A DNA stretch of 64,000 nt from Erwinia aphidicola (GTDB taxonomy: Bacteria; Pseudomonadota; Gammaproteobacteria; Enterobacterales; Enterobacteriaceae). A model generated the notes under the pieces. It did no database searches. It was not told the origin of the DNA and saw only the letters and a program-made list of their open reading frames with translations. The translations under genes were made by a program, and so were the position numbers. Location: contig NZ_JAMKCQ010000001.1 in the NCBI RefSeq assembly GCF_024169515.1, forward strand, positions 1,674,001 to 1,738,000, in the 5' to 3' direction. Positions 23,177 through 34,914 of this stretch are shown here, in pieces (the stretch's first letter is position 1; each line of letters starts with the position of its first letter).

Positions 23177-24541
23177 ATGAGCCATAGCGATACTATCGTC
23201 GCCCAGGCGACCCCACCAGGCCGCGGCGGCGTCGGCATCCTGCGCATTTCCGGCAGCAAAGCCCGCGACGTGGCGCAGCTGCTGCTGGGCAAACTGCCAA
23301 AGCCGCGCTACGCCGACTATCTGCCCTTTACCGATGCGGATGGCAGCACGCTCGACCAGGGCATTGCGCTGTGGTTCCCCGGCCCGAACTCCTTTACCGG
23401 TGAGGACGTACTGGAGCTGCAGGGCCACGGCGGCCCGGTGATCCTCGACCTGCTGCTGAAGCGCATTGTCGCGCTGCCGGGGCTGCGCATTGCTAATCCG
23501 GGGGAGTTCTCCGAGCGCGCCTTTCTCAATGACAAGCTCGACCTCGCCCAGGCCGAGGCGATAGCCGACCTGATCGACGCCAGCTCCGAGCAGGCCGCGC
23601 GCTCGGCGGTCAACTCACTACAGGGGGTTTTCTCCACCCGCGTTAATGCCCTGGTGGAAGCACTCACTCACCTGCGCATCTACGTGGAGGCTGCGATTGA
23701 TTTCCCTGATGAGGAGATCGACTTCCTCTCCGACGGTAAAATTGAGGCCCAGCTTAATCAGGTTATCGGCGATCTGGATGGCGTGCGCGCTGAAGCCCGT
23801 CAGGGCAGCCTGCTGCGTGAAGGGATGAAGGTGGTGATCGCTGGCCGCCCTAACGCCGGAAAATCCAGCCTGCTCAACGCGCTGGCCGGGCGCGAAGCGG
23901 CGATTGTCACCGATATTGCCGGCACCACGCGCGACGTGCTGCGCGAGCATATCCACATTGACGGCATGCCGCTGCACATCATTGATACCGCTGGCCTGCG
24001 TGAAGCCAGTGACGAAGTGGAACGCATCGGTATTGAACGCGCATGGAAAGAGATAGAACAGGCCGATCGCGTGCTGTTTATGGTGGATGGCACCACCACC
24101 GGCGCCACCGAACCCGCTGAGATCTGGCCGGACTTTATTGCCCGCCTGCCGCAAACTCTGCCGATCACCGTGGTAAGGAATAAAGCGGATATCACTGGCG
24201 AAGCAGAGGGTCTGAGCGAAGTGAACGGTCACTCACTTATTCGCCTGTCGGCGCGCACCGGGGACGGTATCGATATCCTGCGCGACCATCTGAAAGCCAG
24301 CATGGGCTTTGCCGGCAATATGGAGGGCGGCTTCCTCGCCCGCCGGCGCCATCTTCAGGCGCTGGAGTTAGCAGCCACTCACCTGCAGCAGGGTAAACAT
24401 CAGCTGCTGGGTGCATGGGCTGGGGAACTGCTGGCGGAAGAGCTGCGCCTGGCCCAGCAGGCGCTGAGTGAGATCACCGGCGAATTCAGCTCCGACGATC
24501 TGCTGGGACGGATCTTCTCCAGTTTCTGCATCGGCAAATAA
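23177..24541 (+). CDS. mnmE: tRNA modification GTPase MnmE (TrmE)
   Basis: A 454-residue protein with an N-terminal folate-binding domain ([21 protein letters not shown]), a helical domain, and an inserted G domain: G1 GRPNAGKSS, the GTTRD switch, DTAGLRE and NKAD. The catalytic C-terminal FCIGK is intact. With MnmG it forms the cmnm5 modification of tRNA wobble uridine. It is the last conserved housekeeping gene before the accessory fimbrial region. Confidence 0.98.
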
Positions 24542-25091
24542 CTCTTTTCGCACTTCCGTTGTAACACGCCGTCCCGCTGTACAAACGTATGGCGGGATGG
24601 CCTGGTTTAAAAAACCCCTCCTTGTCAGTAAAAATAAACTAACACCTTGAATTTAATCATATAATAATCCCAGGCGAAATAATGTTTCATCGTACTGCGG
24701 CTAGTATTTAATTTCTTATAATTGGATTATGCGATATTTTTTTCTATCAATTAACTTCAAATTCAAATTTGCGACATAAATAATATTATGGGAAATGATA
24801 TTAACTAAATAATATCGCATTTATTATAAAGAGGCATTTTGTGAATGTTCGGTGATTGTATTGGAAAATTAGCTATGTAAGAATCCACGTCGTTGTCAGC
24901 TAAGGCAACATGTGACTAAAACAAGCAGGCTCACTCTGCATTCAATTAATAAGACAATTAATCCTTATTACCCACTTATATAATAAGCCGAAGGGTTATC
25001 TTATTATCGAGTCACTAAATCTGTTGGTTTAATCCCGCCCGGATTAAGTTAAGTCGGAATTTGTTATTAATCACCGTAAGGATACATTTAT
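24542..25091. other. AT-rich regulatory region upstream of the fimbrial operon
   Basis: About 550 bp, strongly AT-rich compared with its surroundings, without a convincing gene. Just after mnmE, CCGTCCCGC and GCGGGATGG can pair as a weak terminator near 24570-24600. Two copies of a TAATAAG...CTTATTA dyad lie at 24947-24970 and 24981-25006. The composition suits H-NS silencing. A 9-bp inverted repeat TGCGATATT/AATATCGCA (24730 and 24811) is also present. Confidence 0.5.
24947..25006. promoter_or_regulatory. Two identical dyads upstream of the major pilin gene
   Basis: TAATAAG and CTTATTA pair across 10 bp at 24947-24970. The same two half-sites pair across 12 bp at 24981-25006. The centres are 35 bp apart, and both lie 85-145 bp before the pilin ATG. 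Tandem dyads with the same arms suggest two operators for one dimeric regulator; no regulator gene lies in the operon. Confidence 0.45.
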
Positions 25092-25649
25092 ATGAAAATG
25101 AATAAAATTATGCTGGCTGCGGCCATGACTTTTGCCGCTGTTTCCCTGGCGCATGCTGCAGACGCCACGCCAGGTGCAGCGGCTGGCTCTCAGGGTAGTG
25201 GGCAGTTGTCGTTCAGCGGGTCTATCGTTGATGCACCTTGCTCAATCAAGAGTGAGTCCACCAAGCAGGATATCAACCTGGGTGCTATCTCTAAAGCTCT
25301 GCTGGCTAAGGCAGACGGGCACTCAACGCCTACGCAGGTGAACATCAAACTGGAAAACTGCGAGCTGGCGAAAGACAAAAATGGCGTAACCATTACCTTT
25401 AGCGGCGCGGCAAACGATACCGACGACTCCATGCTGGGTCTGGCAGGTAATGCTTCCGATGCCGGGATTGTGTTTGTTGATAACAAGGGCCAGAAAATCA
25501 AACTGGGTGAAGCAAGCCAGCCAACCAAACTGGTCGGTAGCGACTCCACTCTGAGCTTCAGCGCCTACGTTCAGCAGACTAAAGCCACGCCATCCATTGT
25601 GCCTGGTGACTTTACCGCTGTGGCTAATTTCCAGCTGGCTTACCAGTAA
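25092..25649 (+). CDS. Major fimbrial subunit (MrpA/PapA-like pilin)
   Basis: A 185-residue type I-superfamily pilin with a Sec signal (cleavage expected after AHA near 22). A disulfide pair C50 (VDAPCSI) and C90 (LENCELA) and the C-terminal FTAVANFQLAYQ with penultimate aromatic residue are standard for donor-strand-exchange subunits. The QGSGQLSFSGSIVDAPCSI stretch is close to MR/P- and P-type major pilins. First gene of the operon, with AAGGA before the ATG. It should form the shaft of the pilus outside the cell. Confidence 0.9.
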   Translation: MKMNKIMLAAAMTFAAVSLAHAADATPGAAAGSQGSGQLSFSGSIVDAPCSIKSESTKQDINLGAISKALLAKADGHSTPTQVNIKLENCELAKDKNGVTITFSGAANDTDDSMLGLAGNASDAGIVFVDNKGQKIKLGEASQPTKLVGSDSTLSFSAYVQQTKATPSIVPGDFTAVANFQLAYQ

Positions 25650-25716
25650 GCTTTAGCGCATGCCGTCAACGTGCGGCGCATAGCCGCACGTTTTTTCCAT
25701 GCAGCAGGAGTCGGTG

Positions 25717-26250
25717 ATGTTAGTAACAGAAACAAGCCTGCGGGCCTTTCCCACTCTGATACTGGCGCTGTTTTTTCTTTCTACTGTTAGCCAGGCAGCG
25801 CAACAGGGTAAGGGAGAAGTCTCCATGAGGGGTGCCATCGTCGATACCGCCTGCACTATTGCGACCCGTGATGCTCAACAGAGCATTGATTTGGGTTCTC
25901 TGCCGGTATCCACCCTTGCGCGCGAGGGTAAAGGGCCCGCCTTCCCCCTCACTATTCGTCTGACAGACTGCGTGCTTGGGCGCGCACACAATAACAAAAC
26001 ATTTAACATCACGTTTGATGGTCCTGCCGAAGGATCAACGTTTAATTTACAGGGTAAGGCCTCTGGCGTCGCCCTGCGTATCAGCGATGCCACCGGGCGT
26101 ATAGCCAAAGCCGGTGTCGCGCTCCCACCGCAGGATATTACCCCTGGTGATATGCGTCTGGAATACTTTCTCACCCTGGTGAGCGATCAAAAGCCGCTAA
26201 TGGCCGGAGCCTATTTTATCACCGTCCGTTTCAAGCTGGACTATTTCTGA
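25717..26250 (+). CDS. Minor fimbrial subunit (MrpB/PapH-like, possible terminator)
   Basis: A 177-residue pilin with signal peptide, a cysteine pair C46 (VDTACTI) and C85 (LTDCVLG), and a C-terminal FKLDYF beta-zipper motif. Position two, between the major pilin and the usher, is that of PapH/MrpB, which end assembly and anchor the rod. ATG 25717 is chosen because GGAG lies six bases before it; an ATG six codons upstream has no ribosome site. The terminator role is inferred from gene order. Confidence 0.82.
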   Translation: MLVTETSLRAFPTLILALFFLSTVSQAAQQGKGEVSMRGAIVDTACTIATRDAQQSIDLGSLPVSTLAREGKGPAFPLTIRLTDCVLGRAHNNKTFNITFDGPAEGSTFNLQGKASGVALRISDATGRIAKAGVALPPQDITPGDMRLEYFLTLVSDQKPLMAGAYFITVRFKLDYF

Positions 26251-26296
26251 TGATGAAAAGTCAGGGATAATAAATTAACGGAAAAGCGGATTAACC

Positions 26297-28816
26297 ATGA
26301 AACACTACGCAGCACGGAAGCTGTTCAATCTAAAATTACTATCAGCCTTAATTGTTCTGACGCTGGGTCATTCCGGGCGGGTTTTTTCCTCTGACGATAT
26401 CCAGTTCAATATGGATGTGCTGGATGTTAACGACCGTAAGCATGTTGACCTGAGCCAGTTTTCACGTCAGGGATATATTATGCCCGGTGATTACAGCCTG
26501 ACGGTGCGTATTAACAAAACCGAGCTCTCCGAGCGCACTGTCACCTTTATGGCCGATGAAAACGATGCAAAATCGAGCGTAGCCTGCCTTACCCCCGACC
26601 TGGTTAAGCAATTCGGCCTCAAGCCGCAGCCGTTAGCCGCTCTGAAATGGCATCAGCAGGGGAAGTGCCTCGACATAAGTAGCCTTAAAGGGCTGCAGGC
26701 CCGTGGCGATCTCTCCACTTCCTCGCTCTATATCACTATCCCGCAGGCCTGGCTGGAATATACCGCCGACGACTGGGACCCGCCTTCCCGCTGGGACAAC
26801 GGCATCCCTGGGATTTTGCTCGACTACAGCCTGAATGCCCAGCAGCAGCGCAGCCATAACAGCGGCGACAGGCTTAACCTCAGCGGTAACGGTACCGCAG
26901 GTGTAAACCTGGGTGCATGGCGGCTGCGTGCTGACTGGCAGGGCCGGGCAGAACGCCAGAGCGGTGAGCACGCGCAGACCAGCCGCGAGTTTGACTGGAG
27001 CCGCTTCTACGCCTGGCGTGCACTGAGCTGGCTTGGCGCCAAACTGATGATCGGTGAGAACTATCTCGACTCCTCCATCTTCGACAGCTTCCGTTTTACC
27101 GGCGCCAGCCTGACATCGGATGACAGCATGCTGCCGCCTAATCTGCGCGGCTACGCGCCGGAAGTGACGGGTATCGCCAGAACCGATGCCAAAGTGACCG
27201 TCAGCCAGCAGGGGCGAGTACTGTATGAAACTCAGGTCGCCGCAGGCCCGTTCCGTATTCAGGATCTGAGCGATGCGGTCACCGGCCAGCTGGACGTGCG
27301 CGTTGAAGAGCAGGACGGCAGCGTGCAGACCTTTACCATTAATACCGCCAGTATTCCCTATCTGACCCGCCCGGGCACCATTCGCTTTAAGGTCTCATCG
27401 GGGAAACCCTCAGACTGGAAGCACCGCACCAATGGCGCGCTGTTCAGCGCCGGTGAATTGACCTGGGGGATCAGCAACGGCTGGTCAATGTACGGCGGCG
27501 CTATCGGCGGTGATAAGTATCAGGCACTCTCCATCGGTATTGGCCGTGACCTGCTGGCGCTGGGCGCCATCTCGCTGGATGCCACCCAGTCGCGCGCGCG
27601 TTTGTCGAGTGAGGATAACACCCTGAGCGGCGGCTCATACCGGGTGAGCTATGCGAAAAGTTTTGAGAGCTACGACAGTCAGATTACCTTCGCCGGCTAT
27701 CGCTTCTCGCAGGAGAACTTTATGAGCATGTCAGAGTATCTGGATGCCAAAGAAGATAGCAGCCGCATGGGTAAAAGTAAGCAGATGTATACCGTGACCT
27801 TCAATAAACAGTTCCGCGATGTCGGTCTGTCAACGTACATGACCTACACGCATCAGACTTACTGGAACCGGCCGACCAATGACCGCTACAGCCTGATGCT
27901 GTCGCGCTACTTCGACTGGTGGAAGATCCGCTCAGCCAGCGTATCACTTTCCGCCTACCGTAACCGCGTCGACCAGCGTAATGACGATGGTATGTATCTC
28001 TCCCTCTCTATCCCGTGGGGAGATCGCGGCAGCATTGGCTACAGCATGTCAGCGGCAGGAAAAGAGCGCAGCAATAGCCTGACGTGGAACGATCGCATCA
28101 ACGCCAGTGATAACTACTCGCTCAGCGCCGGTAACAGCCGCAGCGGCGGCAGGGTGAGCGGCTACTACAACCATGACGGTGATATCGCCCGCGTCAGCGC
28201 CAACGCCAGCTATGACCAGGGGCATTACCGCTCGCTGGGATTGAATGCTCAGGGTGGCATGACGCTGACTGCGGAGGGCGGGGCCCTGCATCGTAACAAT
28301 ACCAACGGCGGTACCCGACTGTTAGTGGATACCGACGGCGTGCCGAATGTACCCGTGAAGGGCTACGGCAGCAACCTCCATACCAACTACTTTGGTAAAG
28401 CGGTGATTGCCGATGTTAGCAACTACTATCGCAACAGCGCCCGCATCGACCTTGACAAGCTTGGCGATGATGCGGAGGCCCTGACCTCAGTGGTGCAGGC
28501 CACGCTGACCGAAGGGGCGATTGGCTACCGTCGGTTTAATGTCATTTCCGGTGCGAAAGCGATGGCGATCATCAAGCTGGCAGACGGCAGCACGCCACCG
28601 TTTGGTGCCAAAGTGATCAACTCGCGTAAGCAGGTAACCGGGCTGGTTAACGATGATGGCACTCTCTACCTGAGCGGCATCCGGGCCGGCGAAATCATGA
28701 GCGTAGAGTGGGACGATAAAGCGCAGTGTGAAGTGCGCCTGCCCACGCCGCTACCCGCAGATATGATCAGTCATTCTCTACTGCTGCCGTGTGAAGTCTC
28801 TGACGCGCGCAGCTGA
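26297..28816 (+). CDS. Fimbrial outer-membrane usher (PapC/MrpC-like)
   Basis: An 839-residue usher. After the signal peptide the N-terminal domain reads DDIQFNMDVLDVNDRKHVDL; the barrel and plug follow, with APEVTGIARTDAKVTVSQQG at the plug boundary. The C-terminal domain has a cysteine pair (QCEVRLPTP and LLPCEV). The usher threads chaperone-bound subunits across the outer membrane. Gene order pilin-pilin-usher-chaperone is that of MR/P and P fimbriae rather than type 1 fimbriae, where the chaperone comes first. Confidence 0.93.
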   Translation: MKHYAARKLFNLKLLSALIVLTLGHSGRVFSSDDIQFNMDVLDVNDRKHVDLSQFSRQGYIMPGDYSLTVRINKTELSERTVTFMADENDAKSSVACLTPDLVKQFGLKPQPLAALKWHQQGKCLDISSLKGLQARGDLSTSSLYITIPQAWLEYTADDWDPPSRWDNGIPGILLDYSLNAQQQRSHNSGDRLNLSGNGTAGVNLGAWRLRADWQGRAERQSGEHAQTSREFDWSRFYAWRALSWLGAKLMIGENYLDSSIFDSFRFTGASLTSDDSMLPPNLRGYAPEVTGIARTDAKVTVSQQGRVLYETQVAAGPFRIQDLSDAVTGQLDVRVEEQDGSVQTFTINTASIPYLTRPGTIRFKVSSGKPSDWKHRTNGALFSAGELTWGISNGWSMYGGAIGGDKYQALSIGIGRDLLALGAISLDATQSRARLSSEDNTLSGGSYRVSYAKSFESYDSQITFAGYRFSQENFMSMSEYLDAKEDSSRMGKSKQMYTVTFNKQFRDVGLSTYMTYTHQTYWNRPTNDRYSLMLSRYFDWWKIRSASVSLSAYRNRVDQRNDDGMYLSLSIPWGDRGSIGYSMSAAGKERSNSLTWNDRINASDNYSLSAGNSRSGGRVSGYYNHDGDIARVSANASYDQGHYRSLGLNAQGGMTLTAEGGALHRNNTNGGTRLLVDTDGVPNVPVKGYGSNLHTNYFGKAVIADVSNYYRNSARIDLDKLGDDAEALTSVVQATLTEGAIGYRRFNVISGAKAMAIIKLADGSTPPFGAKVINSRKQVTGLVNDDGTLYLSGIRAGEIMSVEWDDKAQCEVRLPTPLPADMISHSLLLPCEVSDARS

Positions 28817-28861
28817 AAACGGATAGTCAATTATCAACTTGATGAATTTTAAGGTAACCAC

Positions 28862-29614
28862 ATGTTTTCAAATAAAATTATTCCTTTTTTACTGCTGAGC
28901 ACCACGCTGGCGACACAGCAGGCTTCTGCCGCCATTTCACTCGACCGCACCCGGGTTATTTTTGACGGCAAGGCAAAGTCAGCCAGTCTCAGCATCAGTA
29001 ATCAGAATACCCAGCTGCCCTATCTGGCCCAGACGTGGATTGAAGATGAGAAGGGTAACAAAATCAACTCGCCGCTGACGGCGCTGCCGCCCTTGCAGCG
29101 CGTGGAGCCGGGGAAAAAAAGCCAGGTGAAAGTGCAGGCGCTGCCGGCAGCCAACGCGCTGGCGCAGGATCGTGAGACGCTTTACTACTTCAACCTGCGC
29201 GAGATCCCGCCTAAGAGTGATAAGGCCAATACGTTACAGATTGCCCTTCAAACCCGTATCAAGCTGTTATACCGCCCTGCGGCGCTCTACATTGCGCAAA
29301 ATAGCGCACCCCCGCAGGAGCAGCTGACGCTGACGCGTAAGGGCGACCGCTATCTGGTTAATAATCCCACAGGCTACTACATCACGCTGATCGACGGGGG
29401 TGCCAGCAAGCAGGGAACCCCGCTGGCAGATTTTCAGCCACTGATGGTGGCCCCCAAAACCAGCGGCGAGCTGAACGTTACCGCAGCCCAGCTCGGCACC
29501 AGCCCGGTGTTGAAATATATCGATGACTACGGTGGCCGCCCGTCGCTCAGCTTTAGCTGTTCCGGCAATCAGTGTCAGGTCGTGCCAGGCAATAGCCAGG
29601 GCCTGACAGACTGA
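28862..29614 (+). CDS. Periplasmic fimbrial chaperone (PapD/MrpD-like)
   Basis: A 250-residue PapD-type chaperone with signal peptide (cleavage after ASA near 23). Landmarks are ISLDRTRVIFDG, the hydrophobic G1 donor strand with short F1-G1 loop (KVQALPAANAL), ETLYYFNLREIPPK, and TGYYITL in domain 2. It folds the pilins by donor-strand complementation and delivers them to the usher. The short F1-G1 loop places it in the FGS group, which serves rod-shaped pili. AAGG stands 8 bp before the ATG. Confidence 0.92.
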   Translation: MFSNKIIPFLLLSTTLATQQASAAISLDRTRVIFDGKAKSASLSISNQNTQLPYLAQTWIEDEKGNKINSPLTALPPLQRVEPGKKSQVKVQALPAANALAQDRETLYYFNLREIPPKSDKANTLQIALQTRIKLLYRPAALYIAQNSAPPQEQLTLTRKGDRYLVNNPTGYYITLIDGGASKQGTPLADFQPLMVAPKTSGELNVTAAQLGTSPVLKYIDDYGGRPSLSFSCSGNQCQVVPGNSQGLTD

Positions 29615-29650
29615 GTATTAAAGATAATCCAGCCAGGGAATGACAACGAT

Positions 29651-30274
29651 ATGAAGCAGAAGGAATTAGCGGGCGAACCGCGACGGTCAACGGGAAAAAA
29701 CGGTATTGCAGGCGTGCTGATCTGCACCTGTGGGCTGTTCGCGGCTGCTGCGCTGGCCGGGGAACATCGCCCCGTCACCTTCGGTGAAGGTAGCCTGACC
29801 CTCTCCGGCTCACTAACCGAAAGCGCCTGCCGGCTGGAGATGACCAGCCTGCACCAGGTGGTATGGCTCGGCAATACCGATACTGCCTCGCTGCGGCGGC
29901 CGGGGGACCGCGCTGCGCCGGTGAGCTTTCAGCTGAAGCTGGAGGACTGCGGGCGTGGCCCAACATCATTACGCGACAGCAAAAGCGGCAATGTCAGCTG
30001 GAGCACAATGCAACCCGCAGTGTCAGTCTGGTTTTATGGTACCCGCGATGACGATATGCCCGATTATCTGAAAATAAACGGCACCAGCGGGCTGGCGCTG
30101 GCGCTGGCCGACAGCCAGGGAGAGCCTCTGCCGCTTAACCAGCGCGCCGCGCCGCTCTTTCTCTCACCCGGCCGAAACACGTTAACCTACACCGTCACGC
30201 CGGTGCGCACGCCTGCGCCACTGCGTGCAGGTGGCTGGAACGCCAACCTTGATTTCAGGATGATTTATGACTAG
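29651..30274 (+). CDS. Minor fimbrial subunit (MrpE-position pilin)
   Basis: A 207-residue pilin-like protein. A basic N-terminus leads into a hydrophobic signal ending at ALAGE (near 37). A Cys pair lies in LTESACRLEM and LEDCGRG, and the C-terminus LDFRMIYD fits the subunit beta-zipper motif. Its signal region is longer than usual. It lies 36 bp after the chaperone and overlaps the next gene by 8 bp. By position it corresponds to MrpE; whether it is an adaptor or rod subunit cannot be seen from sequence. Confidence 0.78.
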   Translation: MKQKELAGEPRRSTGKNGIAGVLICTCGLFAAAALAGEHRPVTFGEGSLTLSGSLTESACRLEMTSLHQVVWLGNTDTASLRRPGDRAAPVSFQLKLEDCGRGPTSLRDSKSGNVSWSTMQPAVSVWFYGTRDDDMPDYLKINGTSGLALALADSQGEPLPLNQRAAPLFLSPGRNTLTYTVTPVRTPAPLRAGGWNANLDFRMIYD

Positions 30275-30761
30275 CCGTAATGCCCTACGCTGGCTGCCGA
30301 TGGTGCTGTCGGCGGGCTGGGTTTCGCTTGCGGTCGCCGGTACCGCGCAAAGCACCATCACGATATCCATGACCGTGCTGAATCCGCCCCCCTGCACCAT
30401 TAACGATGGCAAGGCGATTGAGGTGGATTTTGGTGAGTTAATTGCAGATGACCTTGACGGCATTCAATTCGGTCGTGCGGTAAACATTGACCTCTCCTGC
30501 AGCGGCCAGAGAAAAAATCAGCTGCGGCTGCAGTTCCAGGGCACGCCAGATAAGGCCATTGCAAACTATCTGCAGACTAACCACGAGGGGCTGGCGATAA
30601 AATTCTTTAGAAATGGCCAGCTATTACCGCTTAACAGCTGGCTTAACTTTAACTGGCCGGATGTACCTGAGCTGCGCGCAGCACCTGTGATTAGCAATAA
30701 AAAGGTGCTGACCGGCGGTACCTTCAGCGCCAGCGCTACGCTGCGCGTGGAGTATCAATAA
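30267..30761 (+). CDS. Minor fimbrial subunit (MrpF/PapE-K-like)
   Basis: A 164-residue pilin with signal peptide (AVAGTAQ region near 25), a Cys pair in NPPPCTIND and IDLSCSG, and the C-terminal ATLRVEYQ motif. The stretch KAIEVDFGELIADDLDG is typical of tip-fibrillum minor subunits. It overlaps both neighbours (8 bp upstream, 1 bp downstream), so translation is coupled. Likely a tip or adaptor subunit. Confidence 0.8.
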   Translation: MTSRNALRWLPMVLSAGWVSLAVAGTAQSTITISMTVLNPPPCTINDGKAIEVDFGELIADDLDGIQFGRAVNIDLSCSGQRKNQLRLQFQGTPDKAIANYLQTNHEGLAIKFFRNGQLLPLNSWLNFNWPDVPELRAAPVISNKKVLTGGTFSASATLRVEYQ

Positions 30762-31258
30762 TGAAACATAGCATACTGCTAGCGCTGGCATTGGTCCTGC
30801 CAGCCATCGAGGCCAGCGCCGGTGTCGCCACCGTCTCGTTTACCGGGACGCTGCTTCTGACGCCTTCCTGTAAGGTCACTTCACCCGAGAGCGGCCGGAT
30901 AGAGGTTAATTTTGGCGATAACGTCGGCATAACGCAGGTTGATGGCGTGCACTACCGTCAGCCGCTTAACTACCGCATCACCTGCAACAACGATAAGCCA
31001 GCCGGGACGGGCCTGAACCTGACGATGCGAGGGGAAATTGCCAACTTTGATGCCAGCAAAGCCGCGCTGCAGACCAGCGTGAAAGGGCTGGGGATCCGCA
31101 TTCTGCAGAACGGCAGCCCGATGGTGATTAATCAGCCGATCAAGGTCACCCCGACAGCGCTACCCGCGCTGGAGGCAGTGCTGGTCAAACAGAGCGACGT
31201 GACGCTGCAAGAGGGCCCGTTCGACGCCGTCGCTACCCTGATGGCCGACTATCAATAG
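30761..31258 (+). CDS. Minor fimbrial subunit (tip/adaptor pilin)
   Basis: A 165-residue pilin with a Sec signal ending near EASAG (about 20), a Cys pair in LTPSCKVTS and YRITCNN, and a C-terminal ATLMADYQ motif. It resembles its upstream neighbour (xxxEVxFGxxx then VDGVHYRQPLNYRI), so the two probably arose by duplication. Its ATG overlaps the upstream stop by one base. By analogy to MrpF/G it sits near the pilus tip. Confidence 0.8.
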   Translation: MKHSILLALALVLPAIEASAGVATVSFTGTLLLTPSCKVTSPESGRIEVNFGDNVGITQVDGVHYRQPLNYRITCNNDKPAGTGLNLTMRGEIANFDASKAALQTSVKGLGIRILQNGSPMVINQPIKVTPTALPALEAVLVKQSDVTLQEGPFDAVATLMADYQ

Positions 31259-31265
31259 GAAAATT

Positions 31266-31808
31266 ATGCCGATAAAACACCTGAAGTCGCCCACGCTGGC
31301 AGTATGTTTCACTCTCTGCATGGTTTCACCGCCATCCAGCGCCATACCCTATGGTGATAACGTTCATCTTTCCGGCACGCTGGTGGCTGAACCCTGCGCA
31401 CTGCGGCCCGGCGACGAGAATATTCGCGTGGACTTCGGCGGAATTGTCGATAAATACCTCTATATTAACGGCCGTAGCCCGTCACAGGCTTTTCAGCTAC
31501 ATCTGCAGGGGTGCGATCTCAGTATTGGAAAGCAGCTCAACGTTTCCTTCAGCGGGAATGAGAGCAGCGTATTACCGGGGCTGCTGGCGGTACAGCAGAC
31601 TAACAGCGGTATTGCTGTCGGTATTGAAGATGCCGGGGGAAAAGCGATTGCGCTTAACAGCGGCAGCAAAGAGGTCACGCTGGAAAAGGGCGATATGACG
31701 CTGAAGTTTGCCGCCTGGATCCAGGGCGAGCCGCAGGCGATTAAGGCACATACCATTGCGCGCGGGGAATTTAGCGCTGTGGCAACGTTCCGGCTGGATT
31801 ATCGCTAA
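31266..31808 (+). CDS. Minor fimbrial subunit (adaptor next to adhesin)
   Basis: A 180-residue pilin with signal peptide (SSA, near 26), a Cys pair in VAEPCALRP and HLQGCDLS, and the C-terminal VATFRLDYR motif. IRVDFGGIVDKYLYINGRSPSQAFQLHL is typical of adaptor subunits beside the adhesin in MR/P-like operons. It lies 7 bp after the previous gene. It is the last subunit gene of normal base composition; everything downstream to yieE is AT-rich. Confidence 0.8.
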   Translation: MPIKHLKSPTLAVCFTLCMVSPPSSAIPYGDNVHLSGTLVAEPCALRPGDENIRVDFGGIVDKYLYINGRSPSQAFQLHLQGCDLSIGKQLNVSFSGNESSVLPGLLAVQQTNSGIAVGIEDAGGKAIALNSGSKEVTLEKGDMTLKFAAWIQGEPQAIKAHTIARGEFSAVATFRLDYR

Positions 31809-31903
31809 AGGACTAAATCGGCTTTGAAAAGATCGTGCTGTTGGACGGTAATTTTATTTGCCAATCAAACTAAATAAAAACCCAATAGATATCAAAATAA
31901 TAA

Positions 31904-32674
31904 ATGAAAAACTCCATAAAAAAATCAAAAAAAACACTTTTCAAAAAAACAGTTTTTTTATTAATGCTTGCATCTCCATTCAGCGCCATCGGCGAAATTC
32001 GTTATGGTGAAGTAAACGGCAATTACAGAATCTACGGTCATGTAGAAAACCCGACTTTTAAAAAAGAATCCGGGTGGAAAACTATAGGTTTTTTCATGTA
32101 TATGTCCAGAAATAAAATCCTCCGGAATGATACTGCTGAATATTGCCCAGATGAGAAAAAAGCCGCTGAAATATTAAACAAGATGTTATCCGGATTAGGA
32201 ACTAATGTAACTTCAGCTTTTACTGACAGTACTTCTACTGACTATTATTTTATATTTCGTTGCAAAAAATCAAAGGAAGAATTTTTGGATATGTGGAGTT
32301 ATGTCGTACACACTCAATTTTCCCCCCCGACCGACTGCAAACTAGACATCCCGACTAACGTAGAGTTTGGAGAAGTTCCGATGAGTACTAACGGAATTCA
32401 GCGCAGGCTGGAAGGTAGCCTGACCTGTGATTATAAAACATCGGTTAATCTGTCACTCACCGGAACGGCTATCAGTGGCACCGCTGATAACAAGCAGATT
32501 AAGGTCGGTGACGCGATAGTGAGCTATGCCTTTGATAACGGCAAAGCCACCACCAGCGTCAGTACCGAAAAAGGCGTGAAGTCATCATTTAGCCTGGATT
32601 TTATCCTTAAAGACAGCGGAAAGAGTGCCGGTAACAAACAGGCTAGCGTGGTGATGACAGCCAGCTGGTATTAA
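31904..32674 (+). CDS. Two-domain fimbrial tip adhesin, copy 1
   Basis: A 256-residue protein with signal peptide, an N-terminal receptor-type domain (about 28-140) and a C-terminal pilin domain starting at the Cys in CKLDIP and VEFGEV. The receptor domain has RIYGHVE near the start and a pattern shared with the two copies downstream: YC, a DEKKAAE helix, LSG, then a second Cys. The C-terminus ends ASVVMTASWY. It resembles MrpH-type tip adhesins in layout, not visibly in detail. Codon use is AT-rich. The signal region contains A7, A8, A7 and T7 runs, and no Shine-Dalgarno is seen before the ATG. Confidence 0.8.
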   Translation: MKNSIKKSKKTLFKKTVFLLMLASPFSAIGEIRYGEVNGNYRIYGHVENPTFKKESGWKTIGFFMYMSRNKILRNDTAEYCPDEKKAAEILNKMLSGLGTNVTSAFTDSTSTDYYFIFRCKKSKEEFLDMWSYVVHTQFSPPTDCKLDIPTNVEFGEVPMSTNGIQRRLEGSLTCDYKTSVNLSLTGTAISGTADNKQIKVGDAIVSYAFDNGKATTSVSTEKGVKSSFSLDFILKDSGKSAGNKQASVVMTASWY

Positions 32675-33129
32675 TGCACAACCACCGTTATAAAATTTAC
32701 AATAAAGCGTGCTGAAGATATCGGGGTTGCCATCAACCTGCGTGGATTTTTTATCCAGAGATAATGGTTGTTTCCACATTACCCCCTTCATATAAACAAC
32801 CCATCCTACCTTGATTTTAACTTTAGCTGAAAATGGATAAAAACAAAGAACAAAATATCGCACATTAACAAAAGATGATATTCCACTGGAAAAAACAATG
32901 GCGAAAATACATTATTGATCAACGATAAGATTATACAATTTCAGGCTGTATCTTTTACTCTTACAGGGGCTACTAGCGGTCAACCCTGCCCGCTGCCGGA
33001 CTGTAATAGGCAAGGACGTAGCGACCTTCCGGTTGGATAATGACCAGCCACTCTCGGTAGAGGCTGATTATACCCCTGTGAATAGCATAATATTTTCTTT
33101 ACACTCATGGCATAAAGTAGGGATCTGAA
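32675..33129. other. Spacer between adhesin copies 1 and 2
   Basis: About 455 bp, mostly AT-rich, without a convincing gene. A distinctly more GC-rich block of 117 bp (32963-33079) is bounded by inverted ACAGGGG/CCCCTGT. The length is far larger than the 7-45 bp spacing in the rest of the operon, which suggests insertion or decay between the adhesin genes. Confidence 0.5.
32963..33079. repeat. 117-bp GC-richer block with 7-bp inverted ends
   Basis: ACAGGGG at 32963 and CCCCTGT at 33073 bound the block inside an AT-rich spacer. Both strands hold short open frames; the minus strand reads REWLVIIQPEGRYVLAYYSP before a stop, the plus strand KDVATFRLDNDQPLSVEADY. Neither has a start or ribosome site. 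It may be a small non-autonomous element or a gene remnant; I do not recognise it. Confidence 0.35.
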
Positions 33130-33885
33130 ATGTTTAACGTATTGATAAAAATCAATAATTTAAGAATGCTAATCTTTTTTTGTTTAATACTCTCTTTCGC
33201 AACCTGTGCCACTACTAACGTTCACTATAGCAAAGAAAATGGAATATACAGAGTTTATGGTCACGTAGAAGGAAGGATGTCTTTAGTTAACATTAACCTT
33301 ATAAACGAATTATATTTAATTATACCTGGAGACAAATCACTCGGAGTCAATGTTGGCAAGGAATACTGCAAAACAGAGGAAGATGCACTTAAAAAGGTGA
33401 ACGAACTCCTTTCAGGCCAGGGAAGCATCGCGTATCTAGGCTCAGTAGGCGCATTAAGCTCTACATTCAGTTTTTATTGCCGGAGGGAGAAAGGCTCAAT
33501 GACTATGTGGTCTTATACTAAAAATTTTCCTCAGGAGCCACCTACCCCCTATGTCAGCTGTAATATCGATATTCCTGGCGCCGTAGATTTTGGTGAAGTC
33601 TCGATGGGCGGCGGGGCGATTCTGCGCACGCTAAAAGGCAGTGCAACCTGCGATGCGAAAACCTCAGTAGCGCTGACGCTTAGCGGCAAGGATATCATTA
33701 ACCAGCAGATTAAGGTCGGTGATGCCGTTGTCGAGTATGCCTTTGAAAATGGCAAAGCCACCACTAACGTCAGCGCTGAGAAAGCGGTAATGTCATCTTT
33801 TGACCTGAATTTCATTCTTAAAAATACCGGTAAGACTGCCGGTAACAAACAGGCTAGCGTGGTGATGACAGCCAGCTGGTATTAA
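33130..33885 (+). CDS. Two-domain fimbrial tip adhesin, copy 2
   Basis: A 251-residue paralogue of the previous adhesin. It has a signal peptide, RVYGHVEG near the start, the EYCKTEEDALKKVNELLSG core with a second Cys in FYCRREKG, and a pilin domain from CNIDIP and VDFGEV onwards. The two pilin domains are close, and the last 50 bp (33837-33886) are identical to 32626-32675, while the receptor domains have diverged widely. AGGG stands 8 bp before the ATG, unlike copy 1. It probably competes with copies 1 and 3 for the pilus tip. Confidence 0.8.
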   Translation: MFNVLIKINNLRMLIFFCLILSFATCATTNVHYSKENGIYRVYGHVEGRMSLVNINLINELYLIIPGDKSLGVNVGKEYCKTEEDALKKVNELLSGQGSIAYLGSVGALSSTFSFYCRREKGSMTMWSYTKNFPQEPPTPYVSCNIDIPGAVDFGEVSMGGGAILRTLKGSATCDAKTSVALTLSGKDIINQQIKVGDAVVEYAFENGKATTNVSAEKAVMSSFDLNFILKNTGKTAGNKQASVVMTASWY

Positions 33886-34170
33886 TTATAGCCGCACGGT
33901 ATTAATGTGCAGTTACGGCGATAATAGCTGGTAATAAGCCACCTTTAGAGGATCACGGAGTTTGAAAAGAAGGAAAGTCTTTCTTATGGAATGCACACCA
34001 CTGAGTACATAGGCTTTTTATCGTTAGCTTTGTAATTTAACCAAGCGAATTCGATAAAGTCAGTGATATTATCAGAAAACCCAAACTCAATGAAATATCG
34101 AGTTCTGGCAGGTTTATTTATAAGAAAAACCTTAATCACCCATGAAAAAAATAAAAACCAAGGTCGAAAA

Positions 34171-34914
34171 ATGAAATTAAAACCTAGAAGCATCGCATCA
34201 ACACTATTGCTGTTTGCTTTATTATTACCAAAAGAATCTTTCTGCTATAACTTGTGGGTAGATATATCTCAAAAAATGCCTGTCGTTTACGGTACAGTAG
34301 ATGAAAATGACTTTGACATAAAAACCACTAAGGGAACCGGAAAAGTTATTTTCGATTATTCTACCGCCGGTATATCACCCTCCATGTACGTGAGAAATGG
34401 TGTTTATTGCTATTCAAAAAAAGACGCTGCGGAAAAAATAAACAGCATATTATCTGGCGGAGCACAATTACATCGGCAGAGTGTGTACGGGGCATATAGG
34501 GATAAAGTATTAATTTCCTGCCCTAATAATAATACAACCCCAATATCTCAATATGTTCTGCTGACGGAAAAAATACCCAGACCTGCGCCGAAGTGTCAGG
34601 TTAATATTCCAGATACGGTAAATTTTGGAACAGTGGAATGGGGAAGATCAGGAAAAAAAATTGAACTGAGCGGATATGTTATGTGCAATAGTGCCACCTC
34701 AGGCCAGTTACGTCTGTTAAGCCCAATCGTGAGCAACATTTTAGTCAAAGATGCTTTGGTCTCTTATGCATTTAACGAGGGTAAAAACAGTCAACGGTTC
34801 TATACGACACCGTATGAAAAAGAGCCTTTCTCGTTGATTTTCGCCCTGGATGACACTGGGGCAACATCAGGATATAAGGAAGCCTCCGTGGTATTCGAAA
34901 CGACCTGGGACTGA
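34171..34914 (+). CDS. Two-domain fimbrial tip adhesin, copy 3
   Basis: A 247-residue protein that starts MKLKPRSIASTLLLFALLLP, a good signal peptide. An upstream in-frame ATG at 34063 would add 36 residues before the signal and is not supported. The receptor domain contains VVYGTVDE, then YCYSKKDAAEKINSILSGG and a second Cys (LISCPNNN). The pilin domain runs from CQVNIPDTVNFGTVEW to SVVFETTWD. It keeps the architecture and Cys spacing of copies 1 and 2 but is the most divergent in both domains. It is the last gene of the operon; yieE follows with normal composition. Confidence 0.77.
   Translation: MKLKPRSIASTLLLFALLLPKESFCYNLWVDISQKMPVVYGTVDENDFDIKTTKGTGKVIFDYSTAGISPSMYVRNGVYCYSKKDAAEKINSILSGGAQLHRQSVYGAYRDKVLISCPNNNTTPISQYVLLTEKIPRPAPKCQVNIPDTVNFGTVEWGRSGKKIELSGYVMCNSATSGQLRLLSPIVSNILVKDALVSYAFNEGKNSQRFYTTPYEKEPFSLIFALDDTGATSGYKEASVVFETTWD

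Follow-up and report, generated by a model that had tools for sequence, protein, structure and literature searches.

Two-domain tip adhesins of chaperone-usher pili, such as FimH and PapG, act as first subunits; the PapG and FimH operons hold one adhesin gene each, and adhesin variation is usually described as allelic, at one adhesin gene per operon, with ste and FayG as exceptions. In excerpts of two reports, Salmonella ste frequently carries two tandem adhesin genes, its single-gene strains being read as recombinants of the two (PMC3373541), and an F4-type operon of enterotoxigenic Escherichia coli (ETEC) O169YN10 has two adhesin paralogs, fayG1 and fayG2, at its 3' end (PMC12050912). Here, we investigated a 64,000-nucleotide stretch of Erwinia aphidicola DNA (the window; C1:1674001-1738000 of a 4,929,485-base genome in 3 contigs), in which a Stf/Ste-like chaperone-usher operon, with usher, chaperone and adjacent pilin subunits, is followed by three consecutive adhesin genes. 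From sequence comparisons, we consider it fairly probable that this is a Stf/Ste-type operon whose adhesin position is taken by three functional-looking tandem alternatives. An earlier note on the window had stated that pili of this class normally have one tip adhesin; this needs a qualifier, since the ste operon frequently holds two and the F4-type operon holds two.

Three tandem two-domain adhesin genes

The operon runs in the order A1-A2-usher-chaperone-m1-m2-m3-m4 (25092-31808) and is flanked by mnmE and yieE; the three adhesin genes all have intact open reading frames (ORFs) on the + strand (Table 1). The earlier note had described them as AT-rich, two-domain adhesins with a common layout, of which copies 1 and 2 are close in their pilin domains but not in their receptor domains and copy 3 is further away, and this description stands with one correction. 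In all three copies, which lie behind the usher, chaperone and pilin genes, an adhesin-type C-terminal pilin domain follows a separate receptor domain. C-x-x-x-IP (as CKLDIP, CNIDIP and CQVNIP) and VxFGxV occur in every copy, and the Y(G)xV(E/D) start is fitted by YGHVE, YGHVE and YGTVD, but the "DA" of the receptor core motif is present in copies 2 and 3 only, where copy 1 reads KKAAE. Copies 1 and 2 are 69% identical in their pilin halves and 28% in their receptor halves, whereas copy 3 shares 40% (copy 1) and 37% (copy 2) of its pilin half, and 15-16% of its receptor half, with the others. The GC content is 56.3% for A1-m4, 43.4-49.4% for the pilin halves and 34.7-37.8% for the signal peptides plus receptor halves, which makes the receptor halves the richest in AT. 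The ORF list starts copy 3 at GTG 34063; we placed its start at ATG 34171 because of (i) a signal-peptide-like N-terminus, judged by eye, and (ii) a better ribosome-binding site (-4.7 vs -1.5 kcal/mol).

With copy 2 as the query in its own genome, copies 1 and 3 were recovered at E values of 2.7e-55 and 2.9e-19, a likeness far beyond chance, and neither copy 2 nor the family profile found further family genes there at E <= 0.001. The family is unnamed in both Pfam and NCBIfam, and none of the NCBIfam adhesin models matches a window adhesin. The plasmid collection, searched with copy 2 as the sole query, gave no match; none of 65 viral stretches encodes a relative; and one scan of genome contigs returned a single relative, in the locus L006 described below. 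Six-frame translation of the spacers between the copies gave no clear pilin remnant.

Profiles of the halves, all taken from a single joint alignment, were compared anew with hhalign. The receptor profile of copies 1 and 2 (13 rows, including the relatives P0006, P0020 and P0021) matched that of copy 3 at 93.6% (102 columns), whereas one column-shuffled control gave 0.2%; homology of the three window receptor halves is therefore probable despite the 15-16% identity between copy 3 and the other two. Among the ten receptor comparisons of five groups, six reached 88.0-96.9%, two were weak (66.8% and 49.7%) and two gave nothing, namely P0008/P0009 against the copy-3 group (0.3%) and against L028/L029 (0.4%); by this measure, some family members are too distant to be linked through the receptor half. 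All ten pilin comparisons reached 97.4% or more.

Structure models of full-length copies 1 and 3 (predicted template-modelling scores, pTM, of 0.56 and 0.49) both had the PapG pilin domain as their best structural match. In Foldseek, copy 1 had one match at E <= 0.001 (PapG, 6.1e-4) and copy 3 none; MrpH and UclD were not among the best 50 matches listed per fold search, but since the pilin half fills these lists, their absence does not speak against such a fold. PDB sequence searches gave nothing related to the window proteins; the hits were unrelated chains with E values of 0.26 to 1.6. None of the three copies matched MrpH_C (PF24223) at E values up to 1, a search in which HMMER filters can drop weak matches, and the 28 relatives have no histidine among their invariant or nearly invariant columns, which leaves room for a site in a single copy. 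In a viral structure library, the one match at E <= 0.001 (6.4e-4, TM 0.27) was an uncharacterised phage protein.

Variation of halves and of copy number

Three protein searches yielded 21 distinct relatives, including two fragments (P0007 and P0019) and two proteins without one end (P0017 and P0021); all 21 are representatives of 90% identity clusters, in which finer variation is invisible. Variable positions were counted in an alignment of 28 rows, with P0019 left out and gapped columns skipped. In the copy-3 clade (n=6: P0011-P0015 and L006; in effect four receptor types), 58 of 111 receptor positions but only one of 106 pilin positions vary; the corresponding counts are 63/107 and 17/108 in the copy-2 clade (n=6) and 19/113 and 5/112 in the copy-1 clade (n=3). 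Taking columns as independent, Fisher p values for the copy-3, copy-2 and copy-1 clades are 2e-20, 4e-11 and 0.004. Copy-3 alleles are 99-100% identical in their pilin halves and 59-82% in their receptor halves, and 4 of 21 signal-peptide positions vary in this clade. L006, P0012 and P0013 share 100% of the pilin half and 59-81% of the receptor half; short metagenome contigs could be chimeric, and the longest contigs of the P0012 and P0013 clusters measure 73.9 and 138.9 kb. Among the copy-2 relatives P0001-P0005, the pilin half is kept at 85-100% and the receptor half at 54-96%.

Copies 1 and 2 also share a direct repeat at their 3' ends (Table 1), whose identical 50-nt tract spans the stop codon. 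Outside the last 47 coding nucleotides, their pilin halves are 69.7% identical at the DNA level, and an aligned identical run of 46 nt was reached in none of 20000 codon shuffles (maximum, 45). P0002-P0005 end in VVLNTEWY or VVLNVEWY, whereas copy 2 and P0001 end, like copy 1, in VVMTASWY, which suggests a sequence transfer whose direction would be from copy 1 to copy 2.

The earlier note had also proposed a search for variable copy number at the mnmE-yieE site, and two E. aphidicola assemblies, the whole basis of this comparison, do differ in it. The record of E. aphidicola JCM 21238, the type strain (L006 and G003, treated as one assembly because the matches in both stop at an identical contig coordinate), carries this operon in the same position, with mnmE 99.8% identical, but holds one adhesin there (45% identity to copy 3), and its genome gave no second match. 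Different receptor folds, or fixed genes, had been named in that note as evidence against an adhesin cassette; as far as our comparisons reach, what we found are related receptor profiles and differing copy numbers. DNA identity to JCM 21238 is 93.5% in the usher gene, 88.8% in m1, 76.1% in m2, 78.5% in m3 and 96.1% in m4. It is lost from the m4 end, stays at 58-70%, measured in steps of 50 bases, over most of the pilin half of copy 3, reaches 82-90% at the end of that half and, after one dip in the spacer (70%), returns to 96%. The m2-m3 stretch (30267-31258) forms a second variable block between m1 and m4, which may follow the adhesin type. Within the operon, about 350 bases of A2 (25745-26089) are missing in JCM 21238 (L006 3943-3952), whose second pilin gene looks broken, and the permease gene beyond yieE (L006 11576-12888) appears there as two overlapping ORFs, indicating a frameshift or a sequencing error.

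Across the genus, 34 of 37 genomes searched have mnmE and yieE on a single contig, at intervals of less than 400 bases in 12, 400-6000 bases in 13, 6-15 kb in eight and 55.6 kb in one. An usher (E up to 1e-100) lies inside this interval in three genomes (G000, G003 and G022), and the adhesin profile matches in three of the 37 (G000, G003 and G030). In G022 (L020 2301-3046), the last gene of this operon at the site is m3-like, and neither m4 nor an adhesin gene precedes yieE among ORFs of at least 90 aa. In the bacterial family, nine of 392 genomes have a profile match, and five of the eight outside the window's own cover little beyond the pilin part.

We further compared 14 operons, namely the window, L006 and 12 Erwinia operons from 50 usher matches (mostly the closest), taking as candidate adhesins, judged by eye, ORFs of at least 130 aa within 5.5 kb after the last subunit gene. 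Two or more candidates occur in three of the 14 operons (three in the window, two each in L024 and L036) and a single one in L006, L021, L023, L025, L034 and L037; by the same measure none was seen in L020, L022, L032, L033 and L035. The L024 (7673-9901) and L036 (7124-9254) pairs, both from genome G012, are tandem adhesin-like genes after m4 of the same operon type as the window's, but belong to a different adhesin group with remotely related pilin parts (hhalign 92.4%). Unlike those of copies 1 and 2, their halves diverge about alike, with receptor/pilin identities of 54/65% (the 54% taking in the signal peptide) and 43/46%. The single adhesin-like protein of L025 (8815-9588) scores 24 bits on PapG_C (cut-off 20) and 23.3 on MrpH_C (cut-off 27).

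Table 1. Features of the chaperone-usher operon and adhesin genes in the window
Feature	Position	Strand	Basis or remark
A1, major-pilin-like subunit, first gene of the operon	25092..25649	+	PF00419 Fimbrial, E 2e-19
A2, pilin-like subunit	25699..26250	+	PF00419, E 8.9e-8
Outer-membrane usher	26297..28816	+	NCBIfam NF011812/PRK15284, 1151.3 bits (cut-off 972)
Periplasmic chaperone	28862..29614	+	PapD_N and PapD_C
m1, pilin-like subunit	29651..30274	+	PF00419, E 1.2e-11
m2, minor subunit, candidate tip adaptor (putative role)	30267..30761	+	PF00419; StfE/SteD/SteE-like, below cut-offs
m3, minor subunit, candidate tip adaptor (putative role)	30761..31258	+	PF00419; StfF/StfE-like, below cut-offs
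m4, pilin-like subunit	31266..31808	+	PF00419; SteF/StfG-like, below cut-offs
Variable adhesin module relative to JCM 21238	31809..34914	+	96% identity in m4, then largely unalignable; recovery at the copy 3 end/yieE spacer
Tip adhesin copy 1	31904..32674	+	256 aa; signal peptide (by eye), receptor half 29-141, pilin half 145-256
Repeat, first arm	32488..32675	+	188 nt, 83% identical to 33699-33886; last 50 nt (32626-32675) identical
Tip adhesin copy 2	33130..33885	+	251 aa; strong ribosome-binding site
Repeat, second arm	33699..33886	+	last 50 nt (33837-33886) identical to copy 1
Tip adhesin copy 3	34171..34914	+	247 aa from ATG 34171

Proposed alternative tips, and other explanations

If the three genes are alternative tip adhesins, each product would be secreted, judging from its N-terminus; the operon's one chaperone would cap it via its pilin half; and the one usher would take it as first subunit, giving one adhesin per pilus. 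The copies would then compete for one tip, the binding target would change with the adhesin taken up, and one cell or population could display several specificities. The copy-3 type, to which the single adhesin of JCM 21238 also belongs, would be the resident adhesin, and copies 1 and 2 related extras whose 3' ends may be kept alike by duplication or gene conversion; receptor halves would diversify between strains, with pilin halves staying compatible with the assembly machinery.

Several observations weigh against this model. The pilin halves of copies 1 and 2 are only 37-40% identical to that of copy 3, so the copies may not fit one adaptor equally well. No ribosome-binding site is recognisable before copy 1, where the predicted pairing with the 16S tail is 0.1 kcal/mol (copy 2, -7.7; copy 3, -4.7), and two copy-1-type proteins, P0007 and P0019, E. 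aphidicola by source name, look truncated. The spacers between the copies (455 and 285 bases) make co-transcription uncertain. Uneven variation is not universal: P0008 and P0009 are 92% identical in the receptor and 90% in the pilin half, P0016 and copy 1 are 96% and 97% identical, P0018 and copy 1 are 42% and 71% identical, and window copy 3 and the P0011-P0015 clade differ in both halves (29-32% and 61-62%). Finally, in the excerpt of PMC12050912, of FayG1 and FayG2 only FayG1 was detected. The low pairing score of copy 1 is no proof of a silent gene, since A2 of the same operon scores 0.7. Between 31700 and 35200, no terminator-like site was found on the + strand between the copies, the sole one lying on the - strand, and promoter-like sites number 10, close to the 8.6 expected by chance. 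Upstream of A1, we also considered a phase-variation switch; the only inverted pair in the mnmE-A1 region (24400-25150) has 14-nt arms with 64 nt between them, which is too short for a fimS-like element.

Tandem alternative tip adhesins are the best reading, and a silent store or a constant-variable exchange the bolder one. If copies 1 and 2 were a silent store, a single position would be expressed, and recombination would move receptor halves between copies and strains, as in antigenic variation by gene conversion. The identical tract of copies 1 and 2, the near-invariant pilin and diverse receptor halves of the copy-3 alleles, and the missing ribosome-binding site of copy 1 are consistent with such a store, which we nevertheless consider unlikely: the ORFs of copies 2 and 3 are intact and preceded by ribosome-binding sites, no exchange of receptor halves was seen between the window copies (identity 28% at most), and both halves of the copy-3 gene, not a swapped receptor alone, differ between the two assemblies. 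Only tentatively can the locus be described as a constant-variable adhesin system, in which a near-fixed pilin socket would accept receptor halves exchanged by recombination, with tandem copies as alternatives or donors; in that case, this Erwinia could reset the binding of one pilus type.

A leftover duplication, with copy 3 alone functioning and the extra copies drifting, copy 1 first, seems quite improbable to us. While the single adhesin of JCM 21238, the truncated-looking P0007 and P0019, and again the start region of copy 1 would fit such drift, all three ORFs are intact, and the conserved pilin and variable receptor halves of P0001-P0005 are unlike neutral decay. That the extra copies enter the pilus at different places, such as adaptor positions, with no competition at the tip, is very improbable, for although their pilin halves differ enough (37-69% identity) to prefer different partners, and m2 and m3 also vary between strains, in all three copies the pilin half follows directly on a receptor half, which is the tip-adhesin layout.

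Relation to known systems

The genome of the window has eight usher matches, the operon's own among them. This usher passes the curated cut-off of the NCBIfam PRK15284 subfamily, a model that would stand for Salmonella Stf, its number falling between those of the StfA and StfD models. The best NCBIfam match of the chaperone is StfD, but at 270.9 bits (cut-off 447), and the minor subunits also stay under the Stf equivalog cut-offs (StfF, 101.9 vs 253; StfE, 76.1 vs 264). For the chaperone, m2, m3 and m4, the top models are all Stf or Ste, each below its equivalog cut-off; those of m1 (FimI) and of A1 and A2 (LpfA) are also below cut-off. On the Ste side, the chaperone scores 248 bits on SteC (cut-off 417), and the usher 955.6 bits on PRK15273 (cut-off 1371), a model placed in Ste by its number only.

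The "three adhesins" of PMC5343171, in the excerpt available, are those of three different fimbriae, and our full-text literature search, whose coverage leaves out most subscription journals, found no three-adhesin tip locus of the window's kind. As in PapG and FimH, a receptor half precedes an adhesin-type pilin domain in the window copies. MrpH, as excerpted in PMC7444556, similarly has a small receptor domain with helices before its pilin domain, and its zinc site includes H72; the window copies, in contrast, have no PF24223 match, and their 28 relatives no conserved histidine column.

Like FayG1 and FayG2, the window adhesins are paralogs encoded at the 3' end of one chaperone-usher operon, but the F4-type fimbriae of ETEC O169YN10 belong to the Kappa class, their adhesins being major subunits, and have two copies. 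With ste, the window shares tandem adhesin genes of which some strains have one; unlike ste, it has three copies, no match to an NCBIfam adhesin model and no recombinant single-gene pattern. With one to three adhesins, a near-invariant pilin half and a hypervariable receptor half, the locus is a natural experiment on how much an usher and its adaptors tolerate at the tip, and on the ways in which binding targets shift in a species other than the standard model organisms. In summary, the window extends the tandem-adhesin theme of these systems to three copies, to an unnamed adhesin family and, in some clades, to a sharp contrast between the two halves of the adhesin.
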